Notes under the pieces: generated by a model | What the model saw: only the letters and a program-made list of their open reading frames with translations | Told to the model about the DNA's origin: nothing | The model's database searches: none | From: Acidobacteriota bacterium | GTDB taxonomy: Bacteria; Acidobacteriota; Terriglobia; Terriglobales; Acidobacteriaceae | NCBI GenBank assembly: GCA_013289685.1 | Contig: JABCZL010000002.1 | Span: 372,001 to 436,000 of the forward strand | Direction of reading: 5' to 3' | Length of the DNA: 64,000 nucleotides | Program-made: the position numbers and the translations under genes | Shown here: one piece after another, positions 47,434 to 50,212 of the stretch | Position numbering within the stretch: the stretch's first letter is position 1 | Layout of the letters: each line of letters opens with the position of its first letter

Positions 47434-49326
47434 TTACGGCACGGCCGCGGCGTCTGCCTGCGCATACAGTTCGTCGATCTGCTTTTTGTAGCGATCTTCG
47501 ATCACGCGGCGGCGCAGTTTCATCGTTGGCGTCAGGGCGCCGTTGTCGGCGGTAAATTCGTCCGGTACCAGCAATACCCGCTTCAGCTTTTCGAAGCGTG
47601 CCAGGTTCTGGTTGATGCCTTCGACAATTCCTTCGTAGAGTGCCTGTACTTTCGGATTGGCAATCAGGTCCGCACGTGACACAAACGAGACTTCGTTCTC
47701 CCGCGCCCACTCTTCCAGCGCCGCGAAGTTGGGAGACACAAGTACTGACGCGAACTTGCGCTTGTCTCCCACAATCGCGGCCACCCCTACCAGAGGATTC
47801 AGTTTGAGCGAATTCTCGATGGGCTGCGGTGCAATAAACTTTCCGCCAGAAGTCTTGATCAGGTCTTTCTTGCGGTCGGTGACGGAAAGATATCCATCGG
47901 CGTCGATGTTGCCGATGTCCCCGGTCTTGAACCAGCCATCGACCAGGGCCGCCCTCGTCTCTTCCGGCCGGTTCCAGTAGCCTTTGAACACCGAAGGGCC
48001 CTTCACCAGAATCTCGCCGTCTTCGGCGATGCGAACTTCGAGATTCGGCAGAATCTTGCCCACCGTTCCGATGCGGTGATTGATCGGCGTATTCACGGCG
48101 ATCACGGGCGAAGTTTCGGTGAGCCCGTAGCCTTCGTGAATGCGAATGCCCATCTTGGCGTACCACTCGGCGAGCTCGCGACCCAGCGGCGCGCCTCCTG
48201 AGATGAAAGTCTCGATGTGCCCGCCCATACCCTCGCGAATCTTCGAAAAGACAAGTCGGTTGGCCAGCTTCCAACTGCGCGAAGTGGGAGTTTTTCCGGC
48301 AAGAATCTCCGGCTTGTGGTCTTGTCCCACGGAAACGGCCCAATCGTAAATCGCGCGCTTGGGCAGGCCCTTGGCTTTCTGCTCGGCCTGCGCGTAGATT
48401 TTTTCGTACACCCGCGGTACGGCTACAAAAATGGATGGCTGCACCTCCAGAAGGCTCGCCGCGAGCCGGTCCAGAAACGGGCAATAGGCCAGCGTTACGC
48501 CGTGATAGATCAGGGAGAAATCGACGTGGCGCGCGGTGATGTGGCAGAGCGGCAGAAACGAGATGCTGACCAGGCCGGGCCGCATGTTGAACCCGAGCAG
48601 CGAGCAGGAAATATTCGAGGCAATGTTGCCGTGGGTCAGCATCGCGCCTTTGGAGGTGCCGGTCGTTCCGGAAGTGTAGACGATGGTGGCCAGATCGTCG
48701 GGAGCGATGGCGCGGGCTTTCGCTTCGATCTCGGCGTCAAGCATCTCCGGGCCCTGCAACGTGATGCTGTTCATGGAGACGCATTTGCCCGCGAACGGAG
48801 CGAGGTCGCCGTTGAACTCCACCGGGTCCATGACGATGATTTTTTCAATCTGCGTCTGGTGCAGGACCGACAGAATCTTGTGCAGTAGTTGGTCCGACGA
48901 CAAAAAGATGACGCGGCAGCCAGCGTCATTCAGGACGAATGCAGTCTGCTCTGCGGTGAGCGTGGTGTAGAGCGGAACGGTTACGGCGCCGAGCAGCAGG
49001 CTGGCCAGATCGGCCGTGGGCCACTCGGGACGATTTTCGCTGAGGATAGCGACGCGATCGCCCGCCCGAATGCCCCAGGCATGCAGCGTGCGCGCGGTTC
49101 TGGCAACTCCGATGCCGAACTCGCGGGATGAGATGGGCAGCCACTGCCCGGCATCGTGGTACAGCATGATGCGGTCCAGATTGCGCTCGACCGCGGCGAA
49201 AAAAATGTCGTTCAGAGTGGCGATGCTCATTGCGTCTTTCGGGGCCTGTGTTTTGCCGCCGCAACCGGCTCCCGAACAAGACTGTACTGTTTTGCCGGTG
49301 GTTTGGGCAATGCGTACGGTCACCAT
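47434..49326 (-). CDS. Long-chain acyl-CoA ligase (AMP-forming)
   Basis: This 630-residue ANL-superfamily enzyme activates fatty acids to acyl-CoA through an acyl-AMP. The P-loop is TIVYTSGTTGTSKGAMLTHG; YGLTETSPVIAVN is the adenine-binding motif; DGWFKTGDIGNID and DRKKDLIKTSGGKFIAPQPI form the hinge; the C-terminal lysine lies in PTMKLRRRVIE. It belongs to the FACS/Fad15-like group rather than E. coli FadD. The start is uncertain: an ATG at 49326 follows GGGAAG, an internal ATG at 49230 gives the family-typical start. Confidence 0.93.
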   Translation of the reverse strand: MVTVRIAQTTGKTVQSCSGAGCGGKTQAPKDAMSIATLNDIFFAAVERNLDRIMLYHDAGQWLPISSREFGIGVARTARTLHAWGIRAGDRVAILSENRPEWPTADLASLLLGAVTVPLYTTLTAEQTAFVLNDAGCRVIFLSSDQLLHKILSVLHQTQIEKIIVMDPVEFNGDLAPFAGKCVSMNSITLQGPEMLDAEIEAKARAIAPDDLATIVYTSGTTGTSKGAMLTHGNIASNISCSLLGFNMRPGLVSISFLPLCHITARHVDFSLIYHGVTLAYCPFLDRLAASLLEVQPSIFVAVPRVYEKIYAQAEQKAKGLPKRAIYDWAVSVGQDHKPEILAGKTPTSRSWKLANRLVFSKIREGMGGHIETFISGGAPLGRELAEWYAKMGIRIHEGYGLTETSPVIAVNTPINHRIGTVGKILPNLEVRIAEDGEILVKGPSVFKGYWNRPEETRAALVDGWFKTGDIGNIDADGYLSVTDRKKDLIKTSGGKFIAPQPIENSLKLNPLVGVAAIVGDKRKFASVLVSPNFAALEEWARENEVSFVSRADLIANPKVQALYEGIVEGINQNLARFEKLKRVLLVPDEFTADNGALTPTMKLRRRVIEDRYKKQIDELYAQADAAAVP

Positions 49327-49403
49327 TAGGTACTTCCCGGTTTACCGCGCTGGCCCGGCAGGGTATGCTAGGCCATCACTCCTGAGGGAGGAGGGAGGAG
49401 TTC

Positions 49404-49979
49404 ATGCAAAAGAGACGCTTCGGAGTTCTGGCGCTGGGGTGGCTTCTGGCGGGTACGCTGACGGTGACCGCCGCATCCCCAACGTTCGCACAAAGCAAGA
49501 AGGAGGATTCTGGCATGCCGAAAGTCGGTGACATGGCGCCCGATTTCACGCTGAAGTATTCAGACGGCAGAGACTTGAAAGAGGTGAAGCTGAGCGACTA
49601 CCGCGGTAAAAAGAACGTCGTGCTGGCGTTCTATATCTTCGCCTTCACGGGTGGTTGAACGCTGCAAATGAAAAACTTCCAGCAGAATCTGAAAGCGCTG
49701 GAAGCAGCCGACACCCAGGTCCTGGGTGTGAGCATGGATAGTTGGTTCTCGAATAAAGCCTTCGCCGACCAAATTGGAGTCACGTTCCCCCTGCTCAGCG
49801 ATTGGGGCGGAAAAGTGACTCGCGAGTACGGCATCTATAAAGACGAATACCAGGCCCCGCGCCGCGTGAACTTCCTGATCGGCAAAGATGGAAAGATCAT
49901 GGAAGAGCAGGTGGACAAAGACGCCATCGATCCCACCAAGATCGTGGATGCCTGCCAGCGCCCGAAGCTGAAGAACTGA
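49404..49979 (+). CDS. Exported peroxiredoxin with probable selenocysteine (in-frame TGA at 49656-49658)
   Basis: Read through the TGA, this is one 191-residue thioredoxin-fold peroxiredoxin of the AhpC/TSA type with a signal peptide (about 1-30, ending ...PTFAQS). Domain start: [20 protein letters not shown]; then [25 protein letters not shown]. In relatives the peroxidatic cysteine follows FTG(G/V), so the TGA sits at residue 85 exactly in its place (T-x-x-U). The frame remains intact for another 106 codons ([40 protein letters not shown]) with normal composition; Cys184 could be the resolving thiol. A hairpin with bacterial SECIS features follows the TGA. It would reduce peroxides in the periplasm. 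The alternatives are a stop mutation or a sequencing error. A GAGGGAGGAG ribosome-binding site precedes the ATG. Confidence 0.82.
49659..49704 (+). promoter_or_regulatory. Candidate bacterial SECIS element
   Basis: The stem CTTCCAGC (49676-49683) pairs perfectly with GCTGGAAG (49697-49704) around a 13-nt loop AGAATCTGAAAGC. The stem begins 17 nt and the loop 25 nt after the TGA. From what is known of bacterial SECIS elements, the loop should lie roughly 16-37 nt downstream and have a G among its first two bases; both hold (A, G). The hairpin is inside the coding sequence, as bacterial SECIS must be. Confidence 0.7.
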
Positions 49980-49990
49980 ACCGATCAACT

Positions 49991-50075
49991 TGTCATCCTG
50001 AGCGGCGTTCTTTGCCGCGAAGGATCTGTGCATCTGGCTGAGAGTGCAGAGATCCTCGCGTTGCTCAGGATGACA
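49991..50075. repeat. Dispersed element with TGTCATCCTGAGC-type inverted ends, copy 4
   Basis: TGTCATCCTGAGCGGCGTTC...GCGAAGGATC is mirrored by GATCCTCGCG...GCTCAGGATGACA, 85 nt long, 12 nt after the peroxiredoxin stop. Inner pair TGCATCT/AGTGCAGA is imperfect. Confidence 0.88.
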
Positions 50076-50212
50076 AAGCGGGCTTTTTTTCTCGCAAGTT
50101 CCACCCCGCCAGGCACTTCTCACTCCCGGGAAACTAAACCGTCTCTATTGGGTTTACACGGATGTCGTTAAAATCGGAGTCGTACCGATTTCTATTTCGT
50201 CGGGGCGAAGAT

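Follow-up and report, generated by a model that had tools for sequence, protein, structure and literature searches.

A gene for a peroxiredoxin-family protein lies on the forward strand of the 64-kb stretch of DNA analysed here (the window), with an acyl-CoA synthetase-like gene in head-to-head orientation to it (Table 1). The reading frame opens with ATG at 49404, ends with a TGA stop codon at 49977-49979 and contains a single further in-frame TGA. An earlier note on this DNA had described one TGA in an otherwise continuous frame, which is correct, and its 192 codons correspond to 191 residues plus the stop. The match to the Pfam AhpC-TSA model covers residues 41-166 (122 bits, cut-off 26) and runs through the TGA; the codon therefore splits one single domain. 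The TGA falls three residues past Thr82, giving the active site T82-G-G-U85, and the residue three after the Thr of the T-x-x-C motif is the peroxidatic Cys position of peroxiredoxins. The note had placed the TGA at this position, and the placement holds, with T82-G-G-U85 inside the AhpC/TSA domain. Downstream of the TGA, Met89 (ATG 49668) begins a frame of 103 residues.

The acyl-CoA synthetase-like gene is found upstream, on the opposite strand, in 28 of 31 loci of a contig scan (see below), and in the other 3 the contig starts no more than 500 bases from the TGA. No promoter was found in a scan around the gene, and all matches in a search of a plasmid collection were under 60% identity. A perfect 14-base inverted repeat was seen by eye on the 3′ side of the gene, with ttgtcatcctgagc at 49990-50003 and gctcaggatgacaa at 50063-50076, and may represent a terminator or an intergenic repeat element. 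In far relatives 10 neighbours were scanned, and no reductase partner was present among them. In 4 of these 10, a gene for a Bax1-I (BI-1/YccA-like) membrane protein precedes the peroxiredoxin gene (L074, 2057-2821; L075, 2042-2749; L078, 2104-2808; L080, 639-1346); we know of no link between the two proteins.

Table 1. Features of the peroxiredoxin locus, numbered by position in the window.
Feature	Position	Strand	Remarks
Acyl-CoA synthetase-like gene, head to head with the peroxiredoxin gene	47434..49326	-	Named by eye; context only
Ribosome-binding-site-like GGAGGGAGGAG ahead of ATG	49390..49400	+	Read in the sequence
Sec-peroxiredoxin gene (predicted)	49404..49979	+	191 residues with TGA read through; Pfam AhpC-TSA 122 bits
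Signal-peptide-like start, likely cleaved after Ala29	49404..49490	+	Home-made rule; 59/60 genes with a start
Thr82 of T-x-x-U motif	49647..49649	+	At least 90% of 50 aligned sequences
In-frame TGA, predicted Sec85, peroxidatic position	49656..49658	+	TGA in 61/61 genes
Candidate bacterial SECIS hairpin, 8 pairs, 13-base loop	49676..49704	+	96.2% paired, 39 distinct near sequences
Arg154, invariant	49863..49865	+	50/50 aligned sequences
Cys184, candidate resolving Cys	49953..49955	+	Invariant 50/50; one Cys after TGA in 60/61 genes

Residues were compared in an alignment of 44 Sec genes and 6 Cys proteins from the databases (n=50). The T-x-x-U/C motif, the AhpC/TSA domain and Arg154, which we take to be the catalytic Arg of peroxiredoxins, are all present in the window protein. 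Cys184 is the only Cys of this protein apart from residue 85, and probably resolves oxidised Sec85. The Sec genes with exactly one Cys after the TGA also have none in the 52 residues before it; the one exception, L038, predicts a protein that ends early and has no Cys after the TGA. An AlphaFold model (mean pLDDT 87.0, about 97 over the domain) confidently predicts an ordinary peroxiredoxin fold, in which residue 85 opens a helix and Cys184 is located in a C-terminal helix (block mean 78). The rule used for signal peptides is lenient, choosing for each gene the most hydrophobic start, and under it nearly all genes with a start, the window gene included, have the signal-peptide-like N-terminus that the note had reported. 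The peroxiredoxin is accordingly predicted to be exported from the cytoplasm.

A scan of genome contigs recovered 32 relatives, 31 of them labelled as Acidobacteria, Terriglobia or members of these and one, L038, labelled as an Alphaproteobacteria MAG. The gene order around L038 is that of the acidobacterial loci, and the bin is probably mislabelled. The site is occupied by TGA in 31 of the 32 loci, and the remaining locus, L040, starts downstream of the codon. A further 29 loci from other genomes of the phylum, 3 of them found through a looser pattern, all have TGA. With the homologues aligned at this column, the codon is TGA in every gene read at the DNA level, window included, and never TAA or TAG. 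The presence of the same TGA in 60 independent assemblies besides that of the window speaks against a sequencing error. A search of 396 genomes sampled from the phylum gave 57 matches at E <= 1e-30, spread over 56 genomes (the window's own included), and all 57 hold exactly one TGA, the position of which was read in 30, again including the window's own. One genome (G157, C10 and C8) has two copies of the gene with one TGA each, and another from the same genus as the window genome (G084) has selA and no peroxiredoxin match at E <= 1e-30. When the Cys relative P0042 was used as the query against the same 396 genomes, 54 places were found, 51 with one TGA and 3 without a stop, indicating that Cys forms can be found by such a search and are few.

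Database searches returned 4646 relatives at E <= 1e-10, and the figures given here are from the 120 listed. Position 85 is absent from 70 of these, 51 of which start at Met89, and is filled by W in 27, by Cys in 17, and by another residue or a gap in 6; hence 97 of the 120 either have no position 85 or have W there. The W is inferred to stand for TGA, and these entries probably come from gene calls made under code 4, several of them (P0002, P0003) reading beyond the usual end with a second W. These entries show a repeated annotation error, in which gene callers break the gene off at the TGA or, probably, take this codon for Trp. The prediction that the gene would be mis-annotated as two fragments stands in part, for the many listed entries that lack position 85. 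A tree of 81 rows, from which P0106 was left out as a long branch, gives at least 10 changes between Sec and Cys, with W rows assumed to be Sec and bootstrap not settled.

Values of dN/dS were calculated against 14 chosen near relatives over 45 codons before the TGA and 70 after it. The mean is 0.06 before the TGA (4 of the 14 dS values were saturated and omitted) and 0.10 after it, indicating purifying selection on both halves of the gene, and no decayed codons, which the note had listed as evidence that would count against it, were found downstream.

The hairpin just past the TGA is a good candidate for a bacterial SECIS element. Starting at the TGA, the first 63 bases form a gap-free alignment, and were compared within a near group (L009-L073) of 40 genes, 39 of them distinct, and a far group (L074-L094) of 21 genes. 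In the near group, pairing in the stem (Table 1) exceeds both that of slid arms, 20 to 54%, and that of 300 within-gene synonymous-codon shuffles, which average 84.0% and reach at most 88.1%. The far group has a different stem of 9 pairs, which is paired in 92.1% of cells (slid 12 to 59%; maximum of 300 shuffles 72.5%) and has a loop of GGC, GTC or GGA in 21 of 21 genes. Counted from the first base of the TGA, the loop starts about 26 bases away in the near group and about 28 in the far group. In the near group 2 pairs have changes on both sides (slid 0 to 2, with a slide of -1 giving 2), and in the far group 3 (slid 0 to 2). Such changes do not separate the near hairpin from the slid controls, and the SECIS claim therefore rests on the shuffles. 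Read from the alignment letters, one far pair is kept in L075 and L077 alongside a change from Asp to Gly. Folding energy relative to synonymous shuffles is lowest directly after the TGA, with a mean z of -1.9 in the near group and -1.1 in the far group, and in the near group is also low in windows out to +18 codons. Synonymous divergence from the 14 near relatives is 0.48 in the hairpin codons versus 0.77 after them. Two members of the far group are exceptions, L090 with 6 of 9 pairs and L094 with 3 of 9, and L094 gives no support to the hairpin. Between the two groups the candidate element has apparently been rebuilt while the protein stayed alike.

The note had proposed that the organism decodes Sec, and selA, selB, selC and selD are all present in the window genome (6.85 Mb, 98.9% complete). 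The selA match scores 548.9 bits when counted with a neighbouring piece, selB 348.8 bits and selD 363.4 bits, and the tRNA-Sec (selC), with anticodon TCA, scores 64.9 bits against a gathering score of 47. The tRNA-Sec model gave 16 hits in the genome, 3 of them above the gathering score, and 8 hits became loci that were checked with ARAGORN, the other 8 being weak. Seven of these, including the other two above the gathering score, were rejected as ordinary tRNAs, leaving one tRNA-Sec. It is located elsewhere in the genome, and Rfam and tRNA scans of the window itself gave no hit. In four further frames of this genome, a TGA occupies a likely Sec position. They are selD itself (AAGUASK; L053), a PrxQ (DTPGUT; L058, G000:C9:182310), a redoxin (GYWUPYC; L063, G000:C2:521132) and an FdnG-like formate dehydrogenase frame (ARVUHGPT; L125, G000:C5:300453), which falls below the Fdh-alpha cut-off and carries a leader of the twin-arginine type. 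The last of these makes an exported selenoprotein less unusual than the note had supposed. Across the phylum sample, selA was found in 252 of 396 genomes (E <= 1e-60), namely in 52 of the 56 with the peroxiredoxin gene versus 200 of the 340 without it (Fisher p 1.4e-7, with species not independent of one another). No selA match was obtained in four genomes that carry the gene (G140, G226, G266 and G314), which are assemblies of 260 to 650 contigs; selB is above the cut-off in three of them, and G266 has a selB piece that scores 145.8 bits and falls below it.

What is established is the conserved TGA, the presence of the sel genes and the conserved pairing of the hairpin. Together with selection on both halves of the gene, they support the Sec-containing T-x-x-U peroxiredoxin proposed in the note, and we consider it very likely that the gene encodes a peroxiredoxin-family protein, predicted to be exported, whose catalytic TGA is translated as Sec by the products of the organism's own selA, selB, selC and selD. 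SelB carrying Sec-tRNA would recognise the hairpin, and Sec would be inserted at residue 85. The protein would then leave the cytoplasm, with predicted cleavage after Ala29, and the Sec85 selenolate would attack H2O2 or an organic peroxide, forming a selenenic acid that Cys184 would resolve as a Se-S bond. The Cys forms (17 of the 120 listed relatives and, presumably, the 3 of 54 places without a stop) count against this reading and are a minority. Also on that side are the four genomes with the gene and no selA match, the incomplete stems of L090 and L094, and the absence of a peroxiredoxin match in G084.

A variant in which Sec is inserted, but the enzyme is an AhpE-like one-Sec peroxidase reduced directly by an outside partner, Cys184 having another role, appears unlikely, though it deserves some weight. 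Mycobacterium tuberculosis AhpE (5id2, 136.6 bits), a one-Cys type enzyme, is among the nearest solved relatives by sequence, with a match that stops at profile position 167, short of the stretch containing Cys184. However, Cys184 is invariant in all 50 aligned sequences, the six Cys forms included, and, residue 85 aside, is the sole Cys in the window protein. Termination at the TGA, leaving either a pseudogene or two small proteins, one of 84 residues and another of 103 residues that begins at Met89, is most improbable. Met89 does open a frame, and is the start used by gene callers in 51 of the 120 listed entries, but a single Pfam domain crosses the TGA, none of the 61 genes has TAA or TAG instead, purifying selection acts on both sides and the hairpin is conserved beyond the synonymous shuffles. 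Equally hard to credit is the reading of TGA as a different residue, whether as Trp under code 4 in all genes or as Cys that the Sec machinery inserts at UGA. W is found at the site in 27 of the 120 listed relatives, and Cys, found there in 17, would fit the site. Against this, the genome has the full selABCD set, including a tRNA-Sec with anticodon TCA. The gene itself also terminates in TGA, and the W entries are probably products of code 4 gene calls, several running past the normal end (P0002, P0003).

Beyond the window, the exported Sec peroxiredoxin may belong to a widespread, Sec-dominated family of the Acidobacteriota, in which Sec is long-standing, Cys was derived several times and a Sec85-Cys184 cycle operates outside the inner membrane, and which gene callers have largely missed by cutting at the TGA or reading it as Trp. 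This wider proposal is tentative, and we hold it at somewhat short of even. If the protein is indeed an exported Sec enzyme, much of the Acidobacteriota (56 of the 396 sampled genomes) would have a selenium-dependent defence against peroxide that acts outside the cytoplasm. Many Sec and some Cys members occur side by side, which opens the switch between Sec and Cys to direct study. A 2006 survey gave 3 selenoprotein families and 4 selenoproteins for Acidobacteria, and cites peroxiredoxin as a case in which selenoproteins become fewer, and Cys forms more numerous, with oxygen (PMC1794560). The deep-Sep source includes one acidobacterium with 3 known selenoproteins (PMC12013277). A literature search that covered mostly titles and the starts of abstracts, largely without subscription papers, found no description of the exported branch.

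The T/SxxU Sec-peroxiredoxins (PrxU) are a published family (PMC1794560, PMC9312934). This type and the window protein have the AhpC/TSA domain, the T-x-x-U motif, the in-frame TGA and the sel machinery in common. However, the window protein scores 85 bits against NCBIfam PrxU (NF040737), for which the cut-off is 270, and its branch differs in a signal-peptide-like start, the invariant C-terminal Cys184 and the lack of Cys in the 52 residues that precede the TGA. By sequence, the nearest solved relatives are 2ywn (a Bcp-like peroxiredoxin, presumably archaeal; 143.8 bits) and AhpE Rv2238c (136.6 bits), and by fold they are ordinary peroxiredoxins. The first two have the same fold, whereas the window protein has predicted Sec in place of Cys, predicted export and a C-terminal Cys beyond the matched stretch. 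The PrxQ/Bcp with a likely Sec in the same genome (C9:182310) shares the T-x-x-U motif and the AhpC/TSA domain with the window protein at 38% identity; against PRK09437 (thioredoxin-dependent thiol peroxidase; cut-off 140) it scores just over the cut-off at 142.3 bits, and the window protein under it at 75.6. Prx-like thiol:disulfide oxidoreductases (UxxC, UxxU) and WAxxUGC ResA-like selenoproteins share pfam00578 and an active-site Sec (PMC9312934). The window protein differs from these in having T-x-x-U with no second Cys nearby, and scores 20.5 bits against the WAxxUGC model versus a cut-off of 300. Sec-peroxiredoxins as such are therefore known, and what appears new is a branch far below the PrxU cut-off, marked by an invariant Cys near the C-terminus and by a predicted signal peptide.
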